DNA of 64,000 nucleotides from Polytrichum commune (taxonomy: Eukaryota; Streptophyta; Polytrichopsida; Polytrichales; Polytrichaceae). The DNA lies in contig OX485805.1 in NCBI GenBank assembly GCA_950295325.1, positions 30,119,501 to 30,183,500 of the forward strand, in the 5' to 3' direction. Both the position numbers and the translations under genes were made by a program. Under the pieces are notes generated by a model. The model saw only the letters and a list, made by a program, of their open reading frames with translations, made no database searches and was not told the DNA's origin. This document shows positions 2,737-64,000 of the stretch, piece by piece. How positions within the stretch are numbered: the stretch's first letter is position 1; each line of letters begins with the position of its first letter.

Positions 2737-5700
2737 TCAGTAGTTTGATTGGGGCAGACTGAAGGTTTGATTAGCCCAAGAAGAAATCAAATGGTGTGCA
2801 ATCGCATAGGGCCCTGGTACAAAAAGTGGGCTACTGGTTTCACTGCTCTCCTGTTTCACATCTGACAAGGGTTTGTGCAGCTTCTTAATTTCTCTATCTT
2901 CGATTGTTGTTGTTGCTGCCGCCTTTTGGATCTTCAACATGGCCTCCAACTGGTCCTTCTTAAAAGGAATCTGTTGAAGTGCGTTCCTTATTTGTTCCCG
3001 AGGGTGCCACCTGGCATCTGGCCAGTCAAACAACAGATGCATTAAATTCATGAAACATGATTACGTTGATTATAGTAAACAGGGTGGACCACACTATTGA
3101 GCTTGTTTCCACACTAAAAGCGCTGGGGATATTACTGTGGGTGCACATTATTTACCAGCCCACAGAATTTAACATCAAAGGTCCATGTTGTAAGGTAGAT
3201 GGGTCTTGTAACGTTCCTCTTTCCAACTAGCCCACTTCTCCTAGGATATGAAACACACGATTAGTACAACATGGTTAGCAAATCCAAATCAAGTCTACAG
3301 CCACTTTCCTCATGATTTTCGGAGCTCATATGAATATCTTATTCATTATCAAAGTGAAGGTTTCCATGCTCATTGAATAAACTTGACTAGACCCTAAAAT
3401 GGTTAGCATATTTTAACCATGAAGTCCAATCTCTTTTGAGCACATGTCTTTCTAGTATCCATTCTTGGAGCCACACCAACCACATACCACTCAAATATAG
3501 GTGTCCTAATAAGAAAAGCAACTGAATAAGGGTTGTCTACCTTAGGTTACAATATTTCTATTGGACTGAAAATAGTGCACTTTTGAAAAACTTCAATCTA
3601 GGGGAAGGACGTGGCTACATCACAGAGCCATGACAGATTAAACTAGGGCTGCAAACTATTTTCTTGCGAAGTGGTGTAGCACTGTCAAATTTTACATTTT
3701 GGCTGCACATAAATTACACATACTTGAATTATCCCTCCAGTAAGAGGACCCTCAAAATGATCAATACTTGATATTAATTTACAAGCTACAATAGACCCCA
3801 GGCATGAAGCAACATGATGTAAATTGATCCAGAGTTGCAAAGAAAAGAATAATCTGTCACATAATTACATACCTTCCAGCTCCTTTCCGTCCACTTTAAT
3901 GTCAAAAGTTTTGGCATATGCAAAGAAGCCTATCATGAGCTGGCACGACATTGAGCTAGGTCCTACTGCAAATCAAAGCAACACATAATTTCAGTGGTTC
4001 AGCTATGTACCCAATTATAACAGTATGCAGTGACAAAATTTTGTCCATAACGGCTTCAGAATTAGCATATATTCTTTGCATTAAGAGCAAAACTTAGCCT
4101 ACTCATCAAAATATTATTGCATGAGGTAAATAAACCTTAAATGGTTACTATTTTCCAACTAGCCCACTTCTCCTAGGATATGAGACATGTGACTGTGTGT
4201 GATGGTTAGCAAATCCAAATCAAGGCCGTAGTCACTTTCCACATAATTTGGAGCTCACACGAATATCTTATTTATTTTCAAAGTGAAGATTCTTATGCTC
4301 ATGAAATGGTCATATAGGTTCCCCCCAATTATGTTGACTATTAAGCCAAGAATGGATATCATATTTTGAGTACGTAGTCCAATCTTTTTAGAACATGTCT
4401 TTTTGGTATCTGTTCTTGGGGCCACACCTAGCCACACCACTCAAAAATAAGTGTCTGTTTAAGATAAGTAACTAAATAAGACATATCTACTTTACCCATG
4501 CATACAGCAGCCATTGAAATAAGAAATGATTTGGTGATGTCTAGACAGAAAATGTTTGATGAACTAAAGATATATATCTTAACACACGGAATCAGTTTTC
4601 TATTTTTGAAACTCTTTATTATTGCACATTATTAACCTGTGAGCTGCACAGAAAAAAATTACCTGGCCAAGGTTGAGAGCTATGGTATACTATGTCACCA
4701 ACTTCAATACCTACTTCCTCCCGAGTTTCACGGTGAACTGCCTCCTCGAGACTTTCACCAGGCTGTAAACCAACAAGATGAAATTATCACATTTCAAGTC
4801 TGTTCCATGACTGAACGTTGAGCAAAATTTGAATCAGGATAATTGGACAACTGGCTTAGAGATTTACACTTAAAATTCTTAGAATACGGACAACCTAAAT
4901 TCTTGTAAAGCAGATCGCATCGGTTGACATGCAATGATCATCTATCTGCCAATGAATGTTGACCTTTTAGGGTTTGATTGACATTTCTATATTTGGTTCA
5001 ACCTAGGCAAAACAGGCGTTCAACGAACTGACCTCGATGAAGCCTGCTAGGCAGCTCCACATGCGTGGCACAAATCGCGATTGCCTGGCCAAAATTGCAC
5101 AGTCACGCTCTTTGTCAATGACAAGCATTATTACAACCTGCAGCCAGAGTACAGCCCCCGAAATTGTCATATGCATTGAATTACAACTGCATCCCTATTG
5201 ACTTCTCACCATCTACAACAACAGAGTGTAAATGACACAAAAAACACTGCCAGAAATACAGGGTTGTATAGAAGTTGATAGAGATTGCACCTAAGATGGC
5301 ATCACCAATTCTGTCAAGGTAGGATGAAAGTCAAAATTTATGAGAAACAAATCTCAAACAAATAGACTTTAAACCACATGTGCGCACACTCTTAATTCAG
5401 TCAATCTGGATATGTTCTCAAACTCTGGACTTCTTGATTGCCTTGATTCTATGAGCGGGGATCCATTGGCACACTTCCATACACCTAAATTTTATGGGAG
5501 GTATGTGAACCCTTAGTGGTTGCTTGAATGTTATGATATTGAAATATGATGGAAAAAATCAAATTTATACTCCCTGATCTTAAATCTAAATGATTAAATT
5601 AGAGATAATCAAAATATAATCAAAAAAATTGCTAAAATATTATCATAACCATCTATGTATATTCCATCAGAGGATCCTACCATACAATTGTATCAGAGGA

Positions 5701-8645
5701 TCCTACAATAAAATTCAGCATTTTGTAAATCTGGACTGGGACTTAGCCCAGTTTTACTTAAATATCAGCAGTGGAAGACTTACAGGATCAATCCGCGGGT
5801 ATAATTTATGGTTGCACTTAACGTTAGAGCACTGCCTCCTTTGCCCACATAAAATGGGGCTGGTGCTACTCCCACAGCGTCCACAGAAAGCAGCCTGCTT
5901 GTGCCATTCTAACATAGCCCTAGCCTGTAGAAACCACACCAGACCAGTACATCATATCATTGATCTTGCCATTTTTTGGTAGTATAGAAAGGGAATTAGC
6001 CCAAAAATTGGTACATGAGCCCTGCACGGCTTCAAAACTGTACATGAGGCTTCCCCCATACGCAGCTCTCAGGATTTCCCAAATTCCCACTTGTGTTCAA
6101 CATGGACTGGCTTGTCCAGAAAGTTAAACGTTGTGTTCTACGAAAAAGCATGGATTTCACTTTGATGTGGTCCACATTTATTTCCTCGTGGATTTCTAAC
6201 ATCTTTAGGCAATTTACTGAACAAGATGATGTATCACACAAGGATTCTGCTCTAAGGTGTTCCATACCTGTTGCTCTTGAATGGTTCCAAATTTACACAG
6301 ATGTAATTTACCTTGAGCAGTGATGCGTCAAACACACATTATTGTTTTCAACAAGAAAATTTGAAAATGATTCCTGAAAATGATCAACGGACACATATTT
6401 CGGTTCTTTCATCCTTGTAAAAATTATTAATTAGCAACCATGAAGCTCAGAATTTTTCCATCGCAACATATATCAGAACATATGTTTTGACGCGAATCTG
6501 AAGCAAGTGCTTCATTCAGAACTACTTCAAAATTTGGTAACGGATGCAGATAAGTTTAATCTATGTGGAGAAAATCACCCACCACACATAGAAATAGAGG
6601 ATTACTGTGGTTAAATCTGATTTCACATTCTGAGTTCAAATATTGAGTTCTATCTTCAGTTCACAGGGGTTCAGAAGCTTCACTCCACCCTGAAAAAGAG
6701 AGAATTCTTCAAGTAGGTTGCCACCTAATTCTATTCACAAAGTAAACATCACCCCAGTAACAATAACAAAGTATTTTCCGGTTGTTATCTGTTTTAAAAG
6801 TGGTATCCTAGCTGTAGGCATGTGAAGAAAATGTCTACTTGAAAATGGTAAGGAAAAATGCAAATAAATGTAATCTATGCGGAGAAAATCCTAATCAACT
6901 AAAGATAGAGCTCATTTGAACTCAGAATACGAAACTTGCAGATTGAACACCAGTAAATCATCTGTTTCTGCATGTGATGGGTGAGTTTCTTCACATAGAT
7001 TAACTTATCTGCATCTCCCCTTACCAAACTTATTTCTTGACATTCACTTCAGGTTCCTACTAACTATCTTTATGATCGTAGTTACCAAATGAAGAATACA
7101 CTCTGTTACTGTGGTTCAATCTGCTTTATACATCCTGATTTCAGATATGAGTTCAAACATCTTCAATTCACAGAGTCCAAAGGGTGATCTCCACCCACAA
7201 AAAACAAAGAATTCTTCAAGTGGGGTCGATTAGAAAGAGACAATTCTTCAAGTAAATCCAGGGTATGAAAGCAGATTGAACAGTAACCCTCTGTTTCTGT
7301 GTGCGGTGGGTGATTCTCTCACAAATATTATACTTACCTGCATCTCTGCTTACCAAAATTTTCAAGTATTTCTTGATATTTGCTTAAGAATCTACAGTTA
7401 TCTTTATGAAAAAAGGTATCAAATAAAACCTACACACTGATACTGTGGTTCAATCTGCTTTATACATTCGGAGTTTAAATATGAGTTTAATCTTCAATTC
7501 ACAGGGTTCACAGGGTTCATTCTCCATCCCAAAAAACAGAATATTCTTCAAGCAGGTTGATGCAAGAAATTCAAGGAGAAAATGCTTTAAGAGCAAACGA
7601 GTAAGGTAGGTTATTTGGCCAGCAATGGACATAAGAAGAGATGCAGAGAGGCTCAACCTATGAGGAGAAATCCACCCACCCCACCCACACAGAAACCAAA
7701 AACAAGAAAATTACTGAGTCTCAATCTGCTTTCACATTCTGAGTTCAAATAGAAGTTCTATCTTCAAATCACGGGGTTCAGAGGGTTCATTCTCCACCCA
7801 CGATAACAGAGACTTCTTCAAGTAAGTTGCTGCAGATTACCCAATTCAGCACAAACAGTACCAGAGTAACTTTCACTTGTTATCTCTTTTGAGAGACCTG
7901 CTGGAGGAATGCGAAGCGAATGTCAAGAACTATTCAAAATTTGGTAAGAAGAGATGCAGATAAGAAAATGTATGTGGAGGAAACCTCTCGCCAAATACAG
8001 AAACAAAAGATTTCTGCTTCCACACCCTGAGTTCCAAAAATGAGTTCTATCTTGAATTCACAGGGCTCAAATGGTTCACTCTCCACCCACAAAACACAGA
8101 ATTCTTCAAGCAGGTTGATGCAAGAAATTTAAGATAAAAATAAAAAAATAAAAAAGGGGGTATTTGTGATGAACGGTAATTAAGCTTACATGGCCAGCGA
8201 TGGCCAACTCGCCCATAGCATCCTGACTCGCCCAATCCGAAGCCTGCATGAGAGTCCTCACATCAGAAAAAGTGAGATCCTGCTGCCCAAACACATCCGC
8301 CAACCTCTTAGTCTCATGCCGGTCTGCGGAATCTTGGACTGGAACGTCGATTGCAAAGTATGCAACTCCATCTCGGTCTCCAATGTACACCATATGCTTG
8401 TTCCTGTCTTCAATTGTGCTGTAGTAGTGATGGATGTCATCGATGTGTTGCCATGCCAGATGCCAATGCGAGCTCTTCTCATGGCTGGGAGCGATTACCA
8501 AGGGTTTGCCATCGCAAATTGGTAAAACTTTAAGGATATGGTCTCCTGGGGTTTGGAGGAGGAATTCCAAAGCCTCCTTCTCTTGCTTCCCCCCTATTAT
8601 GGGATTTCCTGCAAAAGCGTTGATGGTCTCCCTCATTCTCAACAT
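2737..8645 (-). CDS. NUDT19: NUDT19-like Nudix hydrolase (NADH pyrophosphatase), six exons
   Basis: Predicted 391-residue NADH pyrophosphatase of the NudC/NUDT19 type, which splits NAD(P)H into NMNH and AMP. Exons on the minus strand: 8645-8190, 5924-5784, 5137-5033, 4762-4663, 3965-3873, 3017-2737; all junctions are GT/AG and keep the frame. In order: an N-terminal domain starting near NAFAGNP as in plant NUDT19; a four-cysteine zinc ribbon (Cys166, Cys169, Cys184, Cys189); the Nudix box at residues 231-253 (GFIEPGE, then RETREEVGI, matching GX5EX7REUXEEXGU); the NudC-type signature SQPWPVGPSS; and a C-terminal FVPGPYAIAHHLI block. The start is the first ATG after an in-frame stop. Arabidopsis NUDT19 is organellar, but this C-terminus (SNY) is not an obvious PTS1. 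Intron 1 is 2.3 kb and repeat-filled; introns 4 and 5 each hold a dispersed TIR repeat. The family call is strong; targeting is unknown. Confidence 0.88.
3191..3544 (+). mobile_element. Dispersed TIR repeat, family 1, copy in Nudix intron 5
   Basis: About 354 bp that begins TAAGGTAGAT and ends GTCTACCTTA, so the ends form a roughly 9-bp inverted repeat. The interior carries phrases shared by all copies: a 'cctaggatatgaaac' block, a 'gagctcatatgaatatctta' block, a 'gagcacatgtctttctagt' block and 'ccactcaaatataggtgtcc'. It has no coding capacity and is probably a non-autonomous DNA transposon (MITE). It lies wholly inside intron 5 of the Nudix gene. I could not read a clear target-site duplication. 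Confidence 0.7.
4124..4496 (+). mobile_element. Dispersed TIR repeat, family 1, copy in Nudix intron 4
   Basis: Second copy of the family seen at 3191-3544, in the same orientation, with the same interior blocks and similar length. The terminal bases are more eroded (left end near 'aaaccttaaatggtta', right end near 'atctactttacc'). It lies inside intron 4 of the Nudix gene. Confidence 0.65.
6530..8135 (-). repeat. Degenerate tandem repeats filling Nudix intron 1
   Basis: A module recurs at about 6628, 7137, 7467, 7737 and 8027 (spacing about 270-510 bp). Each copy reads, on the + strand, roughly 'ctgagttcaaatatgagttc', then 'aattcacagggttcagaggg', then 'ttctccacccacaaa', then 'gaattcttcaagcaggttg'. 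A second shared block, 'tttggtaagaagagatgcag' followed by 'tgtggagaaaatccaccc', occurs between several copies. The array takes up most of the 2.3-kb intron 1 and contributes no coding sequence. Confidence 0.75.
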
Positions 8646-9670: not shown

Positions 9671-12447
9671 ATGTCCATCACGCTGCTCTCCGGCCGAGTA
9701 AGTAGCGGTGCTGTCACCGGTTTGACATGCTGGAGAAAGAGCGCGGTAGAGGGTCTCCGAACCTTCAGACTTCAGCAGCGACATAGCTACGCTAACAGTA
9801 CCTGCCAACATTCCTTCTTCGACAGAGTTTTGTGGAATTTCGTTGGATTGAGCAGTGATCGGAGAAGTCGCAGATCGACATCTTGTGCTCACGGGATCGG
9901 ATTGGTGAGGAAGTTTAAAGTAGACGCATCCATGGAAGATTCTAGGTGTGCTATCATCACAGGAGTCGCTCGTCCTCACGGGATCGGCCATCAACTCGTG
10001 TACTCATTTTTGAAACAGGTGAGTGAGTGCACAGGAATGACATGTCACTATATTCTTGAGATTTCAATTTTGATTCCTTAGCATATTCTTAAGTTGTGGA
10101 GCATGTATCGAAGCAATCTGAGACCAATTGGTGAGCAGTGTTGGCAGAAATTGTTCTGTTACACGCTTAGGGTATAGGGTTTAAAGTTTTAGGCGTTGTA
10201 CTCATTCTCGAAACAGGTGGGTTGCACAGGAACCACATATCACAACATCCTTGAAATTTCAGTGTTCATGTTGTCGGATTCTTAGAGCATTCTTAAGGTT
10301 GCGGAGCATGTGTCGAAGCGATTTGAAATTTGATTTGTGGGCAGTGTTGGAGGAAATTGTTCCGTTACACGCTTAGGGTTTAGGGTTTAGGGTTTAAGGG
10401 TTTGGGTGTGGAGTCTGTTGTGAAATTTCGTGGTTGAAGGTTTGTTGCTGTTTTTTTTTTATGGCCAGGGCTACAATGTTGTAGGTGCGGATGTGCAAGA
10501 GCTCAACAAGGACGAGAAGCTTGATGATGGAGCTTTCAAGTTTGTGCTTGCAGACATCAGCAATCCTGTAGATGCCAAGCGAGTGGTCGATGCGTCGGTT
10601 GAGGCTTATGGTGGTCAAATTCATGTGCTCATTAACAATGCAGGTAGGCTCTTTGATTGGCACCGAGAGAGATCACAAGTATGACGACTTTCAGCAGAAC
10701 CCATTCATCTTCATTTGTGAAGCTTTGGAAGGATGATTTCTAACAATGCAAGTTGATGATTCTCAGCAAAACTCATTCATCTTCATTTGTGAAGCTTTGA
10801 GAGGATTCGAAAAATGCAAGGTGATTGGCAGTCAAATTTAGAGTCATCTTGACTTATGAAGCTTTGAAAAGATTCAAATAATGCAAGTTGATGATTATCA
10901 GCAAAGTCATTTCCATTTGTGAAGCTTTGAAAAGATGATTACTAAGAATGCGAGTTGATGAATTTCAGCAAAACTCCCTCATACCGGAGCAGAGGATCCT
11001 TTGAAGGAGTTTTCGGATACAGTAGCTGTGAATTTAATCGGAGCTTACAATATGTCGCATTATGCGATACCATTCATGCCGCCAGGAAAATCCAGTATTG
11101 TCCACATGTCCAGCACCAGGGCTCATCAAAGTGAACCAGACACCACAGGCTACAGTGCTTCCAAAGCTGGTCTCTGCGGCCTCACACATTCCCAGGTTTG
11201 TTTTTGCAATTGTATAAGTACCGGCAGAAAAGTTTTGCATCCCATTTTTGCACTTCTAAGGAATCCCTGCAACAGTTGTCACCCCACATTTGTCCAACCT
11301 ACTTTTTTCACCTTCTAGATGCACTTATTGATGTGTTGCCAAAGTGGGCCTCAAAGTAAACTGAATCATCTTCCATTATTGCTAAAGTCACTCAAGTTAC
11401 TGTGCAGTTCTAATTGCAGGCAATTACTTCCTTGCATCCCTTTTTATATCTAGAAATTGAAACAGAAACATCAACAATAGTCACTCAAAGTGTTTGCCTG
11501 TTTTCTGCCTTCCTCATCTCTTTATCATACCTCCCTGCTGGAATGCTGAATAAGCTGGGTTTGGAAGTGGTTTTTTGCAATACGTTGATGATTCATAGTC
11601 TCATGTTTGTGCTGTGATTCTTCTGCATCCCCTTCTCTATCTCTTAAGTGAAAGTGAAACATCAACAATAGTCACTCGGAATGTCTGCCTGTTTTCTGCC
11701 TTCCTCACCTTTAAGGTAGATGGGTTTTAAATGGTTCCTTTTTCCCATTAGCCTACTCCTAGGATATGAAATACATGATCAGTACAAGATGGTTAGCAAA
11801 TCTTAATCGAGGTGGTAGCAACTTTCCTTACAGTTTTCCCAACTCATATAAATATCTTATTCATTGTCAAAGTCAACATTCTCGTGCTCTCTAAATGGTC
11901 ATATACGTCCCCCCAAATATGTTGACTACTGAGCCCAGAATGGTTATCATATTTTGAGCACACAGTCCAATTTGTTGTAAGCACATGTCTTTTTGGTACC
12001 TCTTTTTGGAGCCACACCAAGACACATACTACTCAAAACATAGGTGTCCCATCAAGACAGTAACTGAATAAGGATTGTCTACCTTAGCACACCTATGCTG
12101 AATTGCTGAAATTTGTGATTAAACTGGGTTGTGAACTGGTGTTTTCACTACATTAAAGATTCACAGTCCCATGTGTTGTGGTGTAATTCTGCCTGCAGGC
12201 AATCACTTTAGCAGGCAAAGTGCGTGTCAATGCAGTGTTACCAGGGTGGATTAACACGGATGAGCAAGGTGAAGCCGCATTGCGGAGTGAAGATCATGCA
12301 TGGCACCCCGTGGGGCGGGTGGGTGTTCCCCAAGATGTGGCTGAAATGTGTCTGTTTTTGTGTGATGAAAGGAGATCAGGGTTCATCACTGGTCAAGAGT
12401 TTGTTGTTGATGGGGGTGTCTCGAAGAAGATGGTGTACCCCGAGTAA
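9671..12447 (+). CDS. Classical short-chain dehydrogenase/reductase (SDR), four exons
   Basis: NAD(P)-dependent oxidoreductase with a Rossmann fold; the substrate cannot be told. Exons: 9671 (or 9932)-10018, 10469-10643, 10969-11195, 12199-12447; all GT/AG and in frame. From the ATG at 9932 the protein is 245 residues, the usual classical SDR length. Motifs in that numbering: cofactor glycine motif TGVARPHGIG at 10-19, NNA at 85-87 (NNAA instead of NNAG), active-site Ser in HMSSTRA near 135, YSASK with Tyr149 and Lys153, and LPGWINT. The frame stays open upstream to an ATG at 9671, adding 87 Arg/Ser-rich residues that could be an organelle transit peptide; I list the longer form, but the start is unresolved. 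The C-terminal half (HPVGRVGVPQDVAE, FITGQEFVVDGG) resembles bacterial and fungal SDRs as I recall them. Introns 1 and 2 carry tandem copies of their own splice-site regions, and intron 3 holds a dispersed TIR repeat. Confidence 0.82.
9999..10395 (+). repeat. 198-bp tandem duplication spanning the SDR exon 1 end and donor site
   Basis: Two head-to-tail units, 9999-10196 and 10197 to about 10395. The first contains the last 20 bases of SDR exon 1 plus the real donor (cag|gtgagt at 10018/10019). The second contains a diverged copy of the same exon end and donor (cag|gtgggt at 10216/10217), now inside intron 1. The shared remainder includes 'ttaagttgtggagcatgt'-like and 'gttacacgcttaggg' blocks. 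The second unit ends in a short TTTAGGG run. Confidence 0.85.
10370..10403 (+). repeat. Interstitial plant telomere-type repeat in SDR intron 1
   Basis: Several adjacent TTTAGGG units (ttagggtttagggtttaggg and neighbours). This is the plant telomere heptamer. It is short and lies inside an intron, so it is interstitial rather than a chromosome end. Confidence 0.85.
10684..10990 (+). repeat. ~68-bp tandem repeats in SDR intron 2 carrying acceptor-like sites
   Basis: Five units with period about 65-72 bp. Each starts with a 'ttcagcaaaact'-like string and then has 'catcttcatttgtgaagctt' and 'aatgcaagttgatga'. The AG dinucleotides end at 10694, 10766, 10831, 10901 and 10968. The last of these is the acceptor I assign to exon 3, so four upstream copies of the acceptor context precede it. 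Confidence 0.8.
11712..12086 (+). mobile_element. Dispersed TIR repeat, family 1, copy in SDR intron 3
   Basis: Starts TTAAGGTAGATGGG and ends GTCTACCTTAG, about 375 bp, with the same interior blocks as the copy at 3191-3544. It is one of the best-preserved copies and lies wholly inside intron 3 of the SDR gene. Confidence 0.7.
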
Positions 12448-13816: not shown

Positions 13817-15121
13817 TCACATCCATGGGAAATTCTCGTTTGGATGATCCCCTGCAAATTCAATTAGCATTTGTACATCATCTGCACTCACACACCCATT
13901 CGATTTATCCATCGCATAGTCAACAAGCATCTCAAGGTTATCGTCATCAAGCGCATCCTTGGAATCTTTCGGTACTTCGACCGTGCTCCATGTCTTCAAT
14001 GCCATGTTGTAGATCACAAACTTCGTCAAACATTGTGGCGTCCATTCCATTGGACACATTAGGATGTACTCCTCACAGTAAAAAGTCTTCACAAGGTACC
14101 GATTCTGAAATTCTCTGTCCTCAGGCTTTAACCACAAATGCATTTTGTCTGGCATGCTGTCAACCATGCACCATTGTAGACCTGATTGTAAAAATTCCCA
14201 TACGCGAATCAACCCTTCGTCATCCCCGGTCACGTCATACAAAACTCCTTTCCATTCACCGAGCCCGCTGTGATGGCCATCAACACAGCGCTGATATGGT
14301 GCATGTGGAAGAGACGTCCACGAATCGTGCTCAAAATCGTATGCTATTAATGCAGGTTGCATATGCCTCCGAGACTTGATGTATAAAATCCCATTACAAT
14401 GCACGGACACCCCACACTCCAACTTCACGCGGGAAAGCTCGGCGGATTTCAATGTCCATTTCTCCGAAATGCTTTCGTATACGTACGTTTGCATGTTGGG
14501 GTAACCCATCGTGACAAGTAACTTGTACGTGCCGCAATTTTTGTCCACCGCAATCTCGGACAAAGTGATCACCGTGTCCTTGGATGAGTCATGTTCGTAA
14601 AGAGTTGGCAAATGATGTCTCGCTTTCGTATGAATGTTGAACACGGTACCTTGCTGCGGGTTATGCGAAGTCGCACTATATACATACCCATCGGCCACAA
14701 CCGTTTTCCCCTTCTTGAAGGCGAAGTGCGGAAGCGGCTTTCTCACCCAATCACAAAGCCCCACATCGTACACCAACATGACATGATGACACCAAAAGCC
14801 GACCGCCCCAAAAAGGATGAAATAGGGCTTTGGAAAACGAGGCCCCGCGTATTGCTCTAAGAAGTGTCGGTTTCCTGCGAGAACGTTCCACGCCGAGCAC
14901 ACGCAGCGTAGCTGGTAGAAAATTTGAAGTGGGAGCTTCGCATACACCATCTCCAAGTTAATGAACTGTTGAAGGTTGCCCCATAACGCCGAATCCATCA
15001 CCACATTTTGAGTGCTTGCGCTCGAGCTCCATCCTGAGGGTTGTGGTTGTTGATGGTGCTCAAATGGTCCTCCCACTTTTGACCACTTTCTTGCACCTAA
15101 TTCATCTTGGCTACTGGCCAT
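13817..15121 (-). CDS. F-box protein with kelch-like C-terminal region
   Basis: Predicted 434-residue protein in one coding exon, likely the substrate adaptor of an SCF ubiquitin ligase. The F-box is at about residues 45-90: LWGNLQQF, a short helix, KLPLQIFYQLRCVCSAWNVL, then FLEQ, which fits the LPxxxxxxxRxVCxxWN core. Residues about 110-400 look like F-box-associated or kelch-type blades (LVYDVGLCDWVRKPLP, YVYESISEKWTL, IAYDFEHDSWTSLP, FVIYNMALKTWSTVEVP, each with the Tyr-x(6)-Trp spacing of kelch units). The start is the ATG of MASSQDELGA. The frame runs 19 codons further upstream, but a good acceptor (tttcacag) lies there, just before 15146, so that part is intron. The substrate is unknown. 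Confidence 0.82.
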   Translation of the reverse strand: MASSQDELGARKWSKVGGPFEHHQQPQPSGWSSSASTQNVVMDSALWGNLQQFINLEMVYAKLPLQIFYQLRCVCSAWNVLAGNRHFLEQYAGPRFPKPYFILFGAVGFWCHHVMLVYDVGLCDWVRKPLPHFAFKKGKTVVADGYVYSATSHNPQQGTVFNIHTKARHHLPTLYEHDSSKDTVITLSEIAVDKNCGTYKLLVTMGYPNMQTYVYESISEKWTLKSAELSRVKLECGVSVHCNGILYIKSRRHMQPALIAYDFEHDSWTSLPHAPYQRCVDGHHSGLGEWKGVLYDVTGDDEGLIRVWEFLQSGLQWCMVDSMPDKMHLWLKPEDREFQNRYLVKTFYCEEYILMCPMEWTPQCLTKFVIYNMALKTWSTVEVPKDSKDALDDDNLEMLVDYAMDKSNGCVSADDVQMLIEFAGDHPNENFPWM

Positions 15122-15556
15122 TGTTCCCTCATTATCACCAACTCTGCTGTGAAACAAACACACACACACACACCGCATTCATGTTTGTATTAGGAGGTAC
15201 AGATCTATAAACAAGCAAGTGACACGCATTGAGGAGGTGATAGCTCTAGAGAGTGAAAGCCAATGTTATGCCACGATAATCTTGGAAATTCCCAAACACA
15301 ACCCCTATGTTATTTTCAAGCACCAAAATGAGAGTATGAGGGACTCTGTAAAATACATCATCCTGATGTTCTATGCTGTAGAATAGCATCAATTCTGACA
15401 ATTCAAATCTAAAAATAAATCCTACCTATGCTTAGAGATTTAACGCAGACGCACAACTTCTTGCTTCAAAAAGTAACCCAACCCAGAAACTAAAGATGTC
15501 ACTCCAATTTTCCAATACGACATCCCCAGAGTTTTTGCTTTTGCATGCATCAGATT

Positions 15557-15589
15557 TTTTAGGGTTTAGGGTTTAAGGTTTAGGGTTTT
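15557..15589 (+). repeat. Interstitial telomere-type repeat upstream of the F-box gene
   Basis: Degenerate TTTAGGG units in tandem (tttagggtttagggtttaag and onward). It lies in the suspected 5' UTR intron of the F-box gene. Confidence 0.8.
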
Positions 15590-16376
15590 AAGACCAGGCA
15601 AAAGATGGGTTTAAGACCAACACTTTCTCTCTAGACAGCAAACTTTTCAGGGAAGGGGTTATGTAGGCAAAATTCGGTGGCCTGGCAATTTTATGGCAAC
15701 AGATTCACCACCAGATGACTTGACTTTGAAACCAAATTTCAATTTCCATCTCAAATGTATGCCTAGAATTTTCTGTACGCAGATACAAAAGAGAAACCAC
15801 AAACACATGGCTGAACACGTGGCTAACAAATCCAGTGAATTATTTTGACCCACATCGACCATGATTCCAGATCCAATGCTGCAAGTCACCACCTCATCCA
15901 AATCGATCCAACATCACCAAACCTCACCGATCGTGCATATTGGGCTACTTACAGATATAACATCAAACTCTGGGTCCGAGTTAAAAGAATACTTATTATT
16001 GACCCAAAAGTTTAAGAGGAGATTTCGTCACCCTTAAACCTTACTTTAAAGAACTTTCCTCCGCCAACTATGACACAAACTCTTACTCTGACTACAGTTT
16101 AACATCCAAGCACACTTCTTAGCACAATTTTTTTCCCAAAAGGAAACGTCACCAAAATTCAGTCAATTTCCAGAACCACCCACACCTTTATCTCAATTTC
16201 GAAGACAAAAATTGAACACATTCATCAGTAGAGAGCCAACAGAACACCAAAATGACACCAAAATGACATGAAATTTAGGTTGAACTCAAATCCATGTGTG
16301 CACATCAACAGCTGCGACAAGGAGAGAAATGGAGAACGTGTCAAAACAAAAACATAACCCAAAACAATTCTCAAGA

Positions 16377-23511: not shown

Positions 23512-23695
23512 AAAACAGACACTCATATTTGAGTGGTATGTCGTTAGGTGTCAAGAATAAATACCAAAAAGACATGTGTTTAAATAAGATTGGACTATGT
23601 GTTCAAAGTGTGTTAATCATTCTAGGTTTAATACTTAGCGTATTTAGAGGATCTTAACCATTTAGTGAGCACGAGAATCTTCACTTTGACAATCT
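23512..23695 (-). mobile_element. Dispersed TIR repeat, family 1, truncated copy
   Basis: Reverse orientation relative to 3191-3544. The shared blocks 'gacactcatatttgagtggt', 'aaaaagacatgtgtttaaat' and 'gcacgagaatcttcactttg' are present, and the distal half is missing. It directly follows the 5' end of the LINE relic. Confidence 0.6.
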
Positions 23696-24965: not shown

Positions 24966-29938
<4,973 letters not shown>

Positions 29939-33360: not shown

Positions 33361-33745
33361 GAAGGTAGGTGTGCCTAATGCAATTGCTTCTCTTGATCAA
33401 ACACCCATATTTTAGTGATATTGTATGTGGTTAGGTGTGGCTCCAAGAATAGATGCTAAAAAGACATGTGTTTAAAAGAGATTAACTATGTGCTCCTAAT
33501 AAAATAATTGTTTTAGGTTCAACATCCAACATGATTGGGGAGACCTATATGACCATTTATGAGCATGAGAATCTTCACATGGATAATGAATGAGATATTC
33601 ATATGGGCTCCAAAATTTATTAGGGAAAGTGGTACGGCCTCGATTTGGATTTGCTAACCATATCTCATTAATTGCATGTTTCATATCCTAGAAGGAGTGG
33701 ACTAGTTGGAAAAGGTAACCATTTAAGACCCATCTACCGTAAGGT
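33361..33745 (-). mobile_element. Dispersed TIR repeat, family 1, intergenic copy
   Basis: Full-length reverse-orientation copy. It begins GAAGGTAGGTGTG and ends ACCCATCTACCGTAAGG, with family blocks between (gtggttaggtgtggctccaa, then aaaaagacatgtgtttaaaa, then gcatgtttcatatcctagaa). It is one of the cleanest copies outside genes. Confidence 0.7.
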
Positions 33746-34189: not shown

Positions 34190-34470
34190 ATAGTGATGCC
34201 ACATCATTGGAAGATAGCTATATTTGAAAAAGGACATGAAAACATGTGTTCAAAGGAGATTGGACTAATTGCTCAAAATTCAGTATCCGTTCTAGGTTCA
34301 ATTATCAACATAATTAGGGAAACATATATGATCTTTTAATAAGATGAAAAATCTTCCGTAAATAAGGTATTCATATGAGCTCCAAAATACGGCCATGAGC
34401 ACGAATTGGATTTTCTTATCATTTGCATTAATTGTGATGTTCATGTCCTCCAAGAAGTGCTTGCAAAGCT
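34190..34470 (-). mobile_element. Dispersed TIR repeat, family 1, partial copy
   Basis: Reverse-orientation partial copy with 'acatgtgttcaaaggagatt', 'tcaattatcaacataattag' and 'aaggtattcatatgagctcc' in family order. Both termini are eroded. Confidence 0.55.
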
Positions 34471-38744: not shown

Positions 38745-39003
38745 AAGGATATGAAACGCACAAATTTCCTCATGATTCTTGGGGATCGTATTAATATCTT
38801 ATTTATCATCAAAGTGAGATCTATGAGTTACTGTATGATCATCTAGGTCCCTCCCAAGTATGTTCACTATTGTGTTTAGAACAGTTAACAAGTTTTGAGC
38901 ACATAGTTCAATCTCTTTTCAACATGTCTTTTTGGTATGTGTTCTCGATCCACACCCAACCATACATCACTCAAATATGGATGTTTGTTTAAGATCAGGC
39001 ACC
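38745..39003 (+). mobile_element. Dispersed TIR repeat, family 1, right part
   Basis: Forward copy starting inside the element (aaaggatatgaaacgcacaa) and running to 'catcactcaaatatggatgt'. The left TIR and the extreme right end are lost. Confidence 0.6.
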
Positions 39004-53435: not shown

Positions 53436-56400
53436 ATGGAGCTTCTGACAGGATTGGTGCTGTTGGCGCTCTTGCTGTTTTTGACTCGAATCTTCTGGGT
53501 GGTGAGGTTTACGGGAAGCCCTCTTTTGGTTTCCGATGCCCAGCAAAGGTCTCTTCGGACCCTCATTGTGCTGGGATCAGGTGAGGAGCCCTACATTCCC
53601 CCCTGTATTTGGTTTCTTGGTTTTGGCTGAAACCCTAAACCTAATGACGTTTTGCTATGGAATTCCACTTACTTTTTTCTGTTTTCTACCTTATTCTACT
53701 TGGATTCTCGAGGTTGAAATCTCTGTGCATCTGCAAATGTATCTGAAGAAGCCCGAACCAATCCCAAAAAAGTTTTGGAGCTAATTTTGAATTGTTATGA
53801 ATTATGAAAGTCCAATGGCAATGAATGAGCTATAAGAAAGCCACATAGGCCCCTCGATTATGCGGATGACAATTGAGCCTGGAATGGTTAAATTATTTGG
53901 ATCCCTTTTAAACACAAGATGCCTTTCTGGTGTCTGTTCTCAAATTTGCACCTAACCATACACCACTCAAAATATAGGTGTCTGACTAAGATAAGTAACC
54001 GAATTAGGCCCTCTTACCTTATGGGAAATCCAAAGTGTGAGGATTGCTCTTTTTATCATATGGCCTCTCATTGGCTGATTTGGCTGCAAATTTTTGTTGA
54101 GCAGCCAGGGTGTCATCGTAGCCCAACTTGAAATTGATTTAGAGTTCAGGAAGCCAAAAGACTCATGGGACTAGAAGTACATCAAGATGGGGTTAAAAGG
54201 GCTAATTGTCTAAGGGAACGTAGTGCTGTGACTTCTGTGAGATAACAGCTAATATCAACCTGGCGATCAAGTTGATAGAAAGATGTGAGACTACCTAGCG
54301 CTACATTTTAAAATAGGGAAGCATACCTTCTGTAATGGAGTTGTAAAGGGGATATCTCAACAAAAAGTGTACTTCATTTTCAAATAAGTTGTAAGAGTAA
54401 AGTGGCATAATCCGTTATCCCTAGGGATTGGTATGGTTGGCCATCAGCCATTTTCAATGGCAATTTTTATAACTCAAGGTGCAGTAGCAACAATGCTTTT
54501 GCGTTGGGATGGTGACAAGGGTTGGTTCAAGTACGCTTCACATGCATAGTTGAGAAAGTGTTGGCGAAAGTAGCCTAGTCGTTCCTGCAACGCGAAAGGA
54601 GTTCCATTCTTGAGCAAGAAAGGCTTGCTGTGGAATTCCACTTTGGGAAATTAGAATTGGGAGGATTGCTCTTTAATCATAAGTTTACTCATCACTTGAT
54701 TTGGCTGCAAATTTTTGTTGAGCAGCAATCATTATCATTGTAGCCCAGTTTGCAATTTACCCTCGCATGTGCAGGTGGTCATACGGCAGAGATGCTGAGC
54801 TTGGTGGGAGCACTGAACCGGCAGTGGTATTCACCTCGGTACTACATTGCTGCAATGACGGACAAGATGAGCTTGATCAGGGCTCAAACAGTAGAATCCA
54901 AGTTGTTGGACCAGGTATGAGTTTATTTGGTCTACTTTATGTGGTGTGCGCAATAAGATTTTCTACCAAGTGCGGATGAGTCTTGAGATACTCCTGTGCA
55001 CCAAGGAATGATGGTGTTTTTGGGAAACTCCTTGCTCTTGTGGATCCACTCTCCAAATTGAGAATCTAGATGGGATGGTTTGGTATTTTCTCGCTAAACC
55101 TCACTTGAGAGGTTTAGTCAGTGGAGAATTGAAAGGGCTGAAGCTGGCAGTATGACAGGGAAACCGGGCGGTGGAAAAATCTACTCTGAAAACTGAATAC
55201 TGCCAAATATATCGAAGTCGCGAAGTGGGTCAATCATATATAACTTCAGTCTTCACAACTTTATGGGCATTTGTTCATGCAATGATTCGAGTCCTGCAAA
55301 TACAGCCAGACGTGGTAAGCTATGACCTTCTTCAATCCTAGACTCTACTTCCTTGTAAATTTCTTTGTAGATAATCTCTTGATCTAGTTGCTACTAAGCT
55401 GACAGTCTACACTCAAGATAGAGTAAGCTGTGGCAATGCAAAGTCTCTGTTTAGAAGTTTTGCATTGATCAGGTCAGGAGTTGAAAGTTGTTATACTTGC
55501 CTGTTTAGCACTTCCATAGAATGCCATTTGTTTGAGAGTAGACTTGTATTTAATATGACTAACTCAATGAAGGTGGAATGTAGGTTGGGATTGGTTTCTA
55601 GACAGTAGAAATTTTAGGAGTTGGTCATCATTACTTGTGTAGACGATTCAGATTGTTGCTTGGTGTATTTACAAAGATGTGTTGCCAATGGCTTACTGTA
55701 GATTTTGTGCAACGGTCCGGGCACCTGTCTACCAATTTGTATCGCTGGTTTCCTACTCAAGGTAATCTCTCTTACAAGCATGAGTTGAGACACATGAATA
55801 TAATCCAGGTCTAAATGAGTAGTCCGGTTTAAAGCCTTCTGTCAGATGTGATGTCTGAGAAGTGTCTAGGAATTTTTATGTGTTGACATTCAGTAAGTCC
55901 TAACAATACTATGTAAGCATGTATGTAGACATTAAGCATGTTCCATTGAGGCGATCCTAAAATTGAAACAGCAAAGTCCTAATTGTTGGTTTCTGCAGTT
56001 GTATACCACATAGTAATTACCTGGGACCTGAAAGAGTCAAGGAAGGCCGTTCACGATGTTCAACCTTCATCCTTGTGGTTGCATGTTGTGAATCTTAGGA
56101 TAAAAGCAGCCTCAATAAATGGTTATCTCCAACTCTCCTCCCTCAAAATGTTTATGATAACTTTTTACAAACTTTTTCACTGGAGCATGAGGTCCTTGAC
56201 TGAGTTCAAACAGTCTTAAGGGTTTTATGACTACACATGGTGGTATCCTGGTGCTAATGGGTTCCCAGCATGCAGGTTGTGGGTTGGAAGTGGGTGGTGA
56301 TTGTTTATGTGGAGAGCATTGCGCGGGTGAAGAGGCTGTCACTTACAGGTCTTTTGCTGTATGAGCTTGGACTTACAGACCAGTTCTTTGTCCAGTGGCC

Positions 56401-58300: not shown

Positions 58301-58545
58301 TGCCCTAATTCCCCCCTGCTGCCCCCACATACCTTCCTCCCCCGCCATAGCTCGCCCTTTCCCACCCTCGAGCAAAGGGTGGATGCACACACGGAGGTCG
58401 ATAATACTCCCATTCTCAGCAAGACTGTAGTTTTCATTTACTTACCAGCCGTCATTGCAAGTTGAGTTTGAGTTTCCAAGAGAATTCTCTTCCACCTTCA
58501 AGAGTGCAGGGTTTTAGGTTGAGAGGTTTAGGTGTTCTTTTCGGG

Positions 58546-60222
58546 ATGGCGGGCTCGGAGAGCAAAAAGAAGCGGAAAGACAAGCACCCGGAGGAGGATG
58601 GTGGCGCAGCAGCCAGCACTGCAGTAGATCTCATTGCGAACGAGCAAGCCGACACAGACTACCTGATCAAGCCACAAGCCTCAACTCCACCTTTGGATAC
58701 ATCGAAGTGGCCAATTCTGCTCAAGAATTACGATAAGTTGAATGTGCGAACGGGACATTACACTCCGCTCCCCACGGGACACACACCATTGAAGAGACCG
58801 CTGTTCGATTACGTGAGGTATGGTGTCATCAACCTTGACAAGCCTGCGAACCCCTCATCCCACGAGGTGGTGGCATGGATTCGTCGCATGCTTCGAGTGG
58901 ACAAGACCGGACACAGCGGAACTCTCGATCCTAAGGTGACAGGAAGCTTGATTGTATGTGTAGACCGAGCTACAAGGCTAGTGAAAGCACAGCAAGGAGC
59001 CGGAAAGGAGTATGTGTGTGTTGCGAGGTTGCATTCTGCGGTTGAGTCTGTGGCTAAAGTCGCACAAGCAATTGAAACCCTAACCGGTGCGTTGTTCCAG
59101 CGGCCGCCGTTGATCTCGGCTGTAAAGAGGCAGCTACGTATCCGAACCATATACGAGAGCAAACTGCTCGAGTATGATGCTGAGAGGCATCTGGTGGTGT
59201 TTTGGGTGTCATGTGAAGCGGGGACATATATCCGAACTTTGTGTGTGCATTTGGGGTTACTGTTGGGGGTTGGTGGTCATATGCAGGAGCTTCGTAGGGT
59301 AAGGTCGGGGATATTGGGGGAGAAGGATAATCTTGTGACAATGCATGATGTTTTGGATGCGCAATGGGTGTATGACAACCATAAGGATGAAAGCTACTTG
59401 AGGCGGGTAATCATGCCTTTGGAGGTGCTGCTTACGAGTTACAAGAGGTGTGTTGTGAAGGATAGTGCTGTGAATGCCATCTGCTATGGTGCTAAGCTTA
59501 TGATTCCTGGTTTGTTGAGGTACGAACAAGGGATTGAGGTCGGGGAGGAGGTTGTTTTGATGACCACCAAAGGAGAGGCTATTGCTCTTGGCATTGCTCA
59601 GATGACCACTGCTGTCATGGCAACATGTGATCATGGTGTTGTTGCTAAGGTGAAGAGAGTTGTCATGGAGAGGGATACTTATCCCCGAAAGTGGGGGTTA
59701 GGTCCAAGGGCGACCACGAAGAAGAAAATGATCAATGATGGTCTTCTGGACAAGCATGGTAAACCTAACGAGAAGACCCCTGCAGAATGGTTGAGAGTTC
59801 CGCAGTTTGATTCCATTCCTGCAAAGCAAGATGTGGAGACAACAAGGGCACTTACTGAAGGAGATGAGGTGACACCAGCCAAGGAGAAGAAGGTGAAAAA
59901 GCCCAAGGATGAGTCTGAGGATGGTGACAAGAAAAGGTCGAAGGAAGTGGCCAGCCCTACTCAACAAACACCGGAGACTGCACCGAAGAAGAAGAAAGCC
60001 AAGAAGGATCATGATGCTGATGCTGCAACCCCATTGCCAGCATCCACTCCGGTGACCAATGGCGAAACTACCACGACGGAGAAGAAGAAGAAGAAAAAGA
60101 AATCTGCGGATGTGGAGATGGAAGATGCCCCAGCCGCTGAGGTACCTGCCGCTAATGTAGAAAAGAGTGTAGAGAAGAGTGAAAAGAAGAAGAAGAAGAA
60201 ATCATCAGAAGCTGTGCAATAG
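58546..60222 (+). CDS. CBF5: Dyskerin/CBF5, H/ACA snoRNP pseudouridine synthase (intronless)
   Basis: Predicted 558 residues in one exon. It is the catalytic subunit of H/ACA ribonucleoproteins, which isomerises uridine to pseudouridine in rRNA and snRNA in the nucleolus; in plants as elsewhere it is also linked to telomerase RNP. In order: basic N-terminus (SKKKRKDKH); dyskerin-like domain to about 90 ([32 protein letters not shown] in two parts); TruB catalytic domain with Asp128 in [24 protein letters not shown] and [19 protein letters not shown] domain about 299-375 ([20 protein letters not shown]); YPRKWGLGP; and a Lys-rich low-complexity tail from about 440 with repeated KKKKK blocks, typical of nucleolar proteins. 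The start is the ATG of MAGSES; the frame is open upstream but has no earlier ATG. Length and lack of introns match Arabidopsis CBF5. Confidence 0.96.
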
Positions 60223-60469: not shown

Positions 60470-61090
60470 AGATGGGTGTATAAAACAGACTTTTCACCAG
60501 GAATTTGAACTGGTCTGAATTGTATTATCTTGAATACCTGCGATCTCTTTTCAATTCTTCCTCTCATGGTTGATGTTGTGGACCTTTGAACTTTTGATGT
60601 ACTGTATTGTGGTTTGTGGAAGGAGTGCAATTTGGATATGTTGGGCATGTTAACTCTCCATGTTGAAATATGGTATTGGTGGAATCAATGCAGTCGTTAT
60701 GTTTCCTGCAGATCAAAACGTTTCTAAGAATGGCTTTGGCTATAAAGCAAACTTCTCACCAGGATTTGAACTGGACTGAATTGTATTATGTTGAACAATT
60801 ATCTTGAACTTGACTGAATTGTATCATGTTCAACAATTATCTGGAACTGGATTGAATTTTACTATCTTGAACAATTATGTTGAGCTGGTCTGAATTGTAT
60901 TATCTGTGAACTCTTTTCAAAGTCATATCCTTTCATGGTTTGGGCGATGTTATGGACATGTAGTCTTGCTGCACCTCATTTTGGTTTGTCGAAGGATTGC
61001 AATTTGAAAAACTAGGGGATGTTCAACTCTTCTATGTTGAGATGTGGCTTGCTTTTATCAATGCAGTGGTAACTTGCCCTGCAGTTTAGC
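60470..61090 (+). repeat. Tandem duplication downstream of dyskerin with nested 38-45-bp repeats
   Basis: Unit 1 is about 60470-60715 and unit 2 about 60738-61090. Shared blocks in order: 'cttttcaccaggaatttgaa', 'ctctcatggttgatgttgtg', 'ttgtggtttgtggaaggagt' and 'tcaatgcagtcg', ending in 'cctgcag'. Inside unit 2 the phrase 'ctggactgaattgtattatg' plus 'ttgaacaattatc' is repeated about four times (60755-60905). Confidence 0.75.
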
Positions 61091-63147: not shown

Positions 63148-63451
63148 GTCCATTTCCTTCAAACTCATATGAGTACCATACGTTAAGGGCAGCTTCGGCA
63201 CAAAATAATTCTAAAAATAGACGCCGAAAATTTTAGAAAATTATTGACATTTTTTGCCGAATATAAAATTAATTAATTTTCAAAATTGCCGAAAAGTAAG
63301 AAATTTTTACTTCTCACTAGAATTTTACTTACACTGGAAGCATATATGAACTCTGAAGGAGAGAAGGTGCTCCTTTTGTAATCAAGCTCACTTACATTAG
63401 TCCACAAAGAATATGGGTTAAGAAGTAGCAAGACTCTAAGTGAGGCTTTTC
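63148..63451. other. Spacer between the CutA-like exon and the satellite
   Basis: AT-rich, with repeated 'gccgaaaa' words and short inverted repeats around 63195-63300. No gene. Confidence 0.4.
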
Positions 63452-64000
63452 AAATGTGTTGTACACAATTTTTTGGAGTCCAATTGAGCATAGAAGATGA
63501 AGTTTTATAGAATTTTGTCCAACTAACAAAAGTTGAGAAATCAAGTAATCTTCCACCCCCAACAAGTTTTGTGTCAAAATAAGTCTTTATGCAAAAGATA
63601 TGGACAAAACATTGCAGCTGTGTAAAGATCAAAAAATTAAAATGCGTTCATAACAGTTTTTCGGAGCTCATTTGTGCATAGAAGATCAACTTTTTTGGAA
63701 ATTTATTGCTCTAAGAAAAGTTTAGAAATCAAGTAATCTTCCACCTCCAACAAGTTTTGTGTCAAAATAAGTCTTTATGCGAAAGATATGGAGAAAACAT
63801 TGCAGCCGTGTAAAGATCAAAAAATTAAAATGCGTTCATAACAGTTTTTCGGAGCTCATTTGTGCATAGAAGATGAAGTTTTATAGAATTTTGTCCAACT
63901 AACAAAAGTTGAGAAATCAAGTAATCTTCCACCCCCAACAAGTTTTGTGTCAAAATAAGTCTTTATGCAAAAGATATGGAGAAAACATTGCAGCCGTGTA
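63452..64000 (+). repeat. Satellite array, 188-bp period, running off the window
   Basis: Units start at 63452, 63640 and 63828 (an exact period of 188). Conserved phrases: 'gcatagaagatgaagtttta', 'aagtaatcttccacccccaa', 'caagttttgtgtcaaaataa' and 'gtctttatgcaaaagatatg'. Units 1 and 3 share a 'gaattttgtccaactaac' version that unit 2 lacks, hinting at a two-unit higher-order repeat of 376 bp. The array is cut by the window edge, so its full size is unknown. Confidence 0.92.

Follow-up and report, generated by a model that had tools for sequence, protein, structure and literature searches.

The window, i.e., the whole 64-kb stretch of DNA analysed here, has a eukaryotic and plant-like character, as seen from its spliced genes and TTTAGGG runs. 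It contains a short-chain dehydrogenase/reductase (SDR) gene of four exons on the forward strand, whose model is based on protein homology, in the form of Pfam and PDB matches, and not on transcripts. Its spliced product of 245 amino acids is a single open frame. The product matches the Pfam family adh_short_C2 (PF13561) over residues 11-238 (6.3e-52), with the SDR domain spanning most of the protein, and aligns with PDB 3ged over residues 5-243 (3.5e-41) with no gap at the exon 1/2 junction. The features of the gene and of its first intron are as follows (a slash marks the splice position in all motifs):

9932-10018, + strand: coding portion of SDR exon 1, ATG 9932 to the real donor CAG/GTGAGT
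10019-10468, + strand: SDR intron 1, 450 nt
9999-10193, + strand: copy 1 of the tandem unit, 195 bp, made up of the exon 1 tail (20 nt), the donor and a 5' portion of intron 1
10197-10399, + strand: copy 2 of the tandem unit, 203 bp, wholly intronic
10079-10081, + strand: in-frame TAG met if the twin donor is used, the 21st added codon, after 20 sense codons
10214-10222, + strand: twin donor CAG/GTGGGT, its exon side ending at 10216, 198 bp 3' of the real donor
10469-10643, + strand: SDR exon 2, from the spliced model and the 3ged alignment
10969-11195, + strand: SDR exon 3, on the same basis
12199-12447, + strand: SDR exon 4, up to the stop codon, on the same basis

The SDR frame is also open 5' of ATG 9932, back to ATG 9671. 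The intervening stretch (9671-9931) would add 87 N-terminal residues, which at a guess might form an organelle transit peptide, and encodes a second HGIG.

The repeat across the first exon-intron border

An earlier note on this DNA had claimed a direct duplication of 198 bp spanning the exon 1/intron 1 boundary, and had named an alignment showing the two segments not to be homologous as grounds for dropping the claim. On aligning the two units this objection fails, since the segments are homologous: local alignment of 9999-10193 with 10197-10399 gives 160 identical bases among the 191 aligned (84%), with 16 gap columns and a score of 177, as against a best score of 30 in 500 dinucleotide shuffles. 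The figure of 198 bp is correct at the splice site but does not extend to the unit as a whole, for the copies measure 195 and 203 bp and their ungapped blocks are offset by anything between 195 and 206 bp. With a spacer of only 3 bases, the two copies stand in tandem. Chance similarity of the copies is rejected by the shuffles, together with the window-matched junction tests given below. Further, differences at 31 of the 191 aligned bases, along with several indels, make a misassembly unlikely; the Jukes-Cantor distance between the copies is 0.18. Short runs of the plant telomere repeat TTTAGGG are seen at 10373-10407 and 15557-15592, the first of them where copy 2 ends; copy 1 has a degenerate counterpart at its own end.

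The unit starts 20 nt inside exon 1, and hence the donor has been copied too. Eighteen of the 20 nt of this exon tail are identical between the copies, and of 3000 windows of equal length from the rest of the 64 kb none gives as good a match to the tail as the gene's own intron. The real donor reads AAACAG/GTGAGT, with exon 1 ending at 10018, and its twin reads AAACAG/GTGGGT, bearing out the view that the donor has a counterpart accompanied by a copied exon tail. In the junction block, 88% of 26 nt are identical between the copies.

When scored with a matrix from the window's 18 modelled introns, the gene's own intron being left out, the twin donor attains 8.34 versus 10.68 for the real one. 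This places it above 11 of the 18 real donors, level with one and below six, and its U1 duplex energy is -11.4 kcal/mol versus -13.0 kcal/mol for the real donor. On these measures the twin plausibly looks competent for splicing. In this respect the suggestion of a ready-made alternative donor stands as far as the site itself goes, but the usable 66-codon in-frame addition that came with it does not. The 198 nt added by the twin donor are divisible by three but contain the TAG at 10079, which supplies the answer to the check for in-frame stops that the earlier note had left open. If the twin were used, the SDR protein would end after 49 residues with three junctions remaining downstream, and a stop with junctions still downstream is a usual substrate for decay.

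Junction copies in the modelled introns

The survey of other junctions covered four genes, namely the SDR gene, a cytosolic malate dehydrogenase (MDH, - strand, six introns), a NUDIX gene (- strand, five introns) and ALG14 (+ strand, four introns), amounting to 18 introns and 36 junctions. Two apparently intronless genes, at 13820-15178 and 58405-60219, and other, unmodelled stretches fall outside it; the second of these genes is a single 605-codon open frame carrying DKCLD, TruB and PUA domains, whose predicted product is a dyskerin/CBF5-type pseudouridine synthase. The MDH and ALG14 models derive from plant proteins, with exon ends set by eye, and the NUDIX gene was modelled by eye. All four models were checked as open frames; the NUDIX model is 2 nt over a multiple of three in length, and both it and the MDH model have approximate 3' ends.

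For every junction the adjoining 25 nt of exon were aligned to the intron concerned, both by themselves and with 12 nt of intron added, and compared with 400 same-length windows elsewhere. With the exon alone, three of the 36 junctions reach p<=0.01, i.e., the SDR intron 1 donor, the MDH intron 1 acceptor and the NUDIX intron 1 donor (0/400 each). With the intron flank the acceptors of SDR introns 2 and 3 are added, bringing the number to five, while the other 31 junctions lack a match at p<=0.01 even with the flank, and 13 of the 18 introns are without a junction copy at this threshold. Seven of the junctions, namely the five hits plus two that narrowly missed the threshold, were picked after the 400-window run and repeated with 3000 windows. 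With the flank, no window matched at least as well for SDR introns 1 and 2, MDH intron 1 and NUDIX intron 1, as compared with 17 windows for SDR intron 3, 85 for the NUDIX intron 2 acceptor and 294 for the ALG14 intron 1 donor. With the exon alone the corresponding counts are 112 for SDR intron 2 and 985 for SDR intron 3; the support for these two cases thus comes from the sequence context of the junction and from the arrays that surround it. Self-alignment shows the copies to extend into the exons by 20 nt in SDR intron 1, 14 nt in SDR intron 2 and 22 nt in MDH intron 1. The repeats at these further junctions are:

10676-10982, + strand: array of about 67 bp filling most of SDR intron 2 (TRF, 4.4 copies, 10676-10976)
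11402-11429, + strand: twin of the SDR intron 3 acceptor, GCAG/GCAATTACTT, with 10 nt resembling the head of exon 4
11433-11710, + strand: tandem repeat in SDR intron 3 with a shift of 191 bp (11433-11519 and 11624-11710)
28086-29069, - strand: repeat array in MDH intron 1, reaching 22 nt into exon 2 (exon 2 start 28107)
6518-8141, - strand: repeat array in NUDIX intron 1, from self-alignment
7616-7631, - strand: copy of the NUDIX exon 1 tail, 14/16 nt, with the expected GT absent

In SDR intron 2 the last copy of the array takes in the real acceptor and reaches 14 nt into exon 3. Within the array, 10907-10982 and 10705-10780 match at 86%, and acceptor-like copies precede positions 10695, 10767 and 10902. 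All 27 upstream AGs that were tried as starts of exon 3 give stops. In SDR intron 3 the twin at 11402-11429 agrees with 12181-12208 at 79% of 28 nt, and in a small matrix it scores higher than the real acceptor (8.6 as against 6.67); its use leads to stops.

The head of MDH exon 2 encodes QIGYAL, identical to the plant protein, which fits copying from exon to intron there. The intronic twin has lost the AG before it and, if used, would meet a stop at codon 47. The edge of the MDH array and exon 2 share CTGGT; since this left edge could derive from an exon copy that has decayed, no breakpoint microhomology is claimed for it. The donor-side copy in NUDIX intron 1 is probable and not certain, because its register is imperfect and no GT follows it: the copy of the exon tail is slightly out of step with the array (a shift of about 575 versus 558), and a lenient alignment picked another register. 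Reading through at this twin results in a stop.

Self-BLAST within the four genes (E<=1e-3) recovers local repeats in six introns, i.e., SDR introns 1, 2 and 3, MDH intron 1, NUDIX intron 1 and ALG14 intron 1, and five of these six hold a junction copy. The exception is ALG14 intron 1, with a local duplication (54022-54135 and 54644-54757) that ends 17 nt short of the acceptor and no junction copy by the 400-window tests. Short repeats seen by TRF only, at 5666-5715 (26 bp, NUDIX intron 2) and 26562-26605 (16 bp, MDH intron 3), lie in introns without a junction copy at p<=0.01, and counting them lowers the proportion from five of six to five of eight.

Other repeats of the window are of separate kinds. 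A dispersed element of about 375 bp is present at 3191-3545, 4137-4494 and 11712-12086, the last of these copies being in SDR intron 3, with partial matches at 23528-23693, 26708-26995, 33391-33742, 34239-34338, 38786-38975 and 53949-54008. These matches are 71-77% identical and five are inside modelled introns; the piece at 53949-54008 is just 5' of the first ALG14 intron 1 copy, and an extra self-BLAST pair represents the element in NUDIX introns 4 and 5. The copies at 3191 and 11712 start with TAAGGTAGA and end with TCTACCTTA, i.e., they have inverted ends like those of a MITE. Additionally, a 188-bp tandem array whose copies are 88-92% alike occupies 63449-64000, up to the end of the window.

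Probable intron lengthening and its rivals

We favour, with a probability of roughly 0.8, a neutral lengthening of introns by local tandem duplication in which the outer splice site stays in use. Under this reading, a tandem duplication across the SDR exon 1/intron 1 border would have doubled a segment made up of 20 nt of exon, the donor and some 180 nt of intron. As splicing would keep the outer, i.e., first, donor, the second copy would lie within the intron and the mRNA would be unchanged, with only the intron becoming longer. Intron 1, at present 450 nt, shrinks to 252 nt once 198 nt are taken away. This agrees with the proposal in the earlier note that the intron grew by duplicating its own donor: exon tail, donor and 5' intron are found in tandem, with the direction of the change being the part that we infer. 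The same kind of event would have taken place at the acceptors of SDR introns 2 and 3 and MDH intron 1 and, with less certainty, on the donor side of NUDIX intron 1. In general, a donor-crossing duplication would be harmless if the first donor is kept, and an acceptor-crossing one if the last acceptor is kept. Events that leave the mRNA unchanged would survive, and the twin splice sites would be their relics. Occasional use of the SDR twin would lead to the stop at the 21st added codon and probably to nonsense-mediated decay. The tandem copies, their overlap with the exons, the stop codon and the recurrence are directly observed; the splice site in use, the neutrality of the growth, the ancestral intron lengths and the order of events are in each case deduced from the sequence.

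In support of lengthening, the homology-supported model uses the outer donor and yields a protein collinear with 3ged. Likewise, the MDH twin without an AG and the NUDIX twin without a GT are as expected of relics. Against the relic view, the twin acceptor of SDR intron 3 outscores the real one, which is not required of a mere relic.

A placement model gives the chance of a duplication crossing an intron edge as 0.83 for SDR intron 1, 0.82 for SDR intron 2, 0.22 for MDH intron 1, 0.61 for SDR intron 3 and 0.45 for NUDIX intron 1. Given that 82-83% of random duplications of these sizes would cross in SDR introns 1 and 2, no special mechanism is needed for the crossing itself, and under the model crossings are to be expected where introns are short. 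The copied exon parts are short in all five cases (10-22 nt). The chance of such short overlaps under random placement is about 0.003 when the three secure cases are considered and 0.00002 when all five are, these being rough, post hoc values for which the unit, exon and ancestral intron lengths were guessed. To account for them, selection against larger exon copies or a preference in breakpoints has to be added. The likeliest reason is selection against larger, more exon-like copies, a breakpoint preference being the bolder supposition.

That introns here lengthen mainly by tandem arrays starting at splice junctions, their breakpoints falling 10-22 nt into the exon and ladders of twin sites being left behind, is a more sweeping claim which we consider doubtful. 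If true, junction-anchored growth would leave the history of intron elongation legible in the sequence and would keep cryptic sites in constant supply. It also appears unlikely that a directed process nucleates the arrays at splice junctions with these breakpoints, for instance through mis-priming at exon edges or through breaks associated with transcription or R-loops. Such a process would fit the junction copies in five of the six introns with self-BLAST repeats and the low chance of the exon overlaps. However, this pattern was recognized post hoc from few cases, of which two of five are weaker (17/3000 for SDR intron 3 and the imperfect register for NUDIX), and local tandem repeats also occur outside modelled introns, e.g., at 60479-61084 and 63449-64000. 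Moreover, selection against long exon copies predicts the same pattern.

A regulatory function of the SDR twin donor, whereby the stop-containing mRNA is degraded and output is tuned by unproductive splicing, strikes us as decidedly unlikely. The twin is the weaker of the two SDR donors, its junction block is little more conserved than the copy as a whole (88% versus 84%), and its MDH and NUDIX counterparts have lost the AG or GT, all of which tell against a maintained site in spite of its standing above 11 of 18 real donors, its good pairing with U1 and a stop positioned with three junctions downstream. Finally, a mobile or introner-like element as the source of the repeat is very improbable: introns here do carry the dispersed element, e.g., at 3191-3545, 4137-4494 and 11712-12086, but the copies of the SDR unit are tandem and include gene-specific exon sequence, and a search of the 64-kb window alone (E<=1e-3) recovered no dispersed copy of the unit save short matches around the TTTAGGG runs.

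Neutral lengthening by local duplication, as favoured here, bears on a mode of growth seldom accessible, for intron growth other than by insertion of mobile elements is rarely readable from a single sequence. In this instance the copies are labelled by a fragment of coding exon, from which one can see where the added sequence came from. Further, the presence of the pattern in three genes of a 64-kb region suggests that the genome is well suited to measuring the rate of junction-crossing duplication and the tolerance of splicing to it.

Comparison with known systems

A word search of a partial literature returned, among the matches listed, no report of recurrent junction-spanning arrays in the introns of one plant region, and passages of PMC7969005 contain nothing closer to the SDR case. 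In a potato RdRp gene, a tandem duplication over an intron-exon boundary gave rise to a new intron and to additional exon sequence, a result backed by RNA-seq (Ma, Lan and Niu 2016, PMC4974935). As in the SDR gene, this is a plant gene with a local tandem duplication that includes a splice junction and the adjoining exon. Unlike the potato gene with its new intron, the extra SDR copy appears to have been absorbed, leaving the old intron longer.

The tandem genomic duplication (AGGT) model, in which duplication of an exonic segment creates an intron (reviewed in PMC3443670), resembles the SDR case in that tandem duplication supplies a second set of splice sites. However, the SDR duplication involved an existing donor and its intron rather than an exonic segment; an AGGT-type gain was rejected for this locus on the grounds that the unit is mostly intronic and the acceptor at 10468 falls outside both copies. 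Tandem duplication as a route to intron gain has also been discussed for Drosophila (PMC2891723).

In the minisatellite of human IFI6 (6-16), downstream repeat units are used as donors, giving three mRNAs (Turri 1995, via PMC4526556). The likeness consists in donor-carrying repeat units at an exon edge, and the difference in that the extra donors of IFI6 are used, whereas the extra SDR donor is predicted to lead to a stop; an open-frame extra donor of the IFI6 type was likewise discarded, the frame being closed by the TAG at 10079. Human paralogues have internal tandem repeats at exon-intron boundaries, which are recent, lie in segmental duplications and often generate new introns (PMC2812944). 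Border repeats alter intron structure there as they do here, but in contrast to those recent repeats the SDR intron 1 copies have diverged at 31 of 191 aligned bases. Thus, duplications across exon-intron borders are already known, and the SDR case differs from them in the probable lengthening, as opposed to the gain, of an intron, and in the recurrence of such events in a small region.
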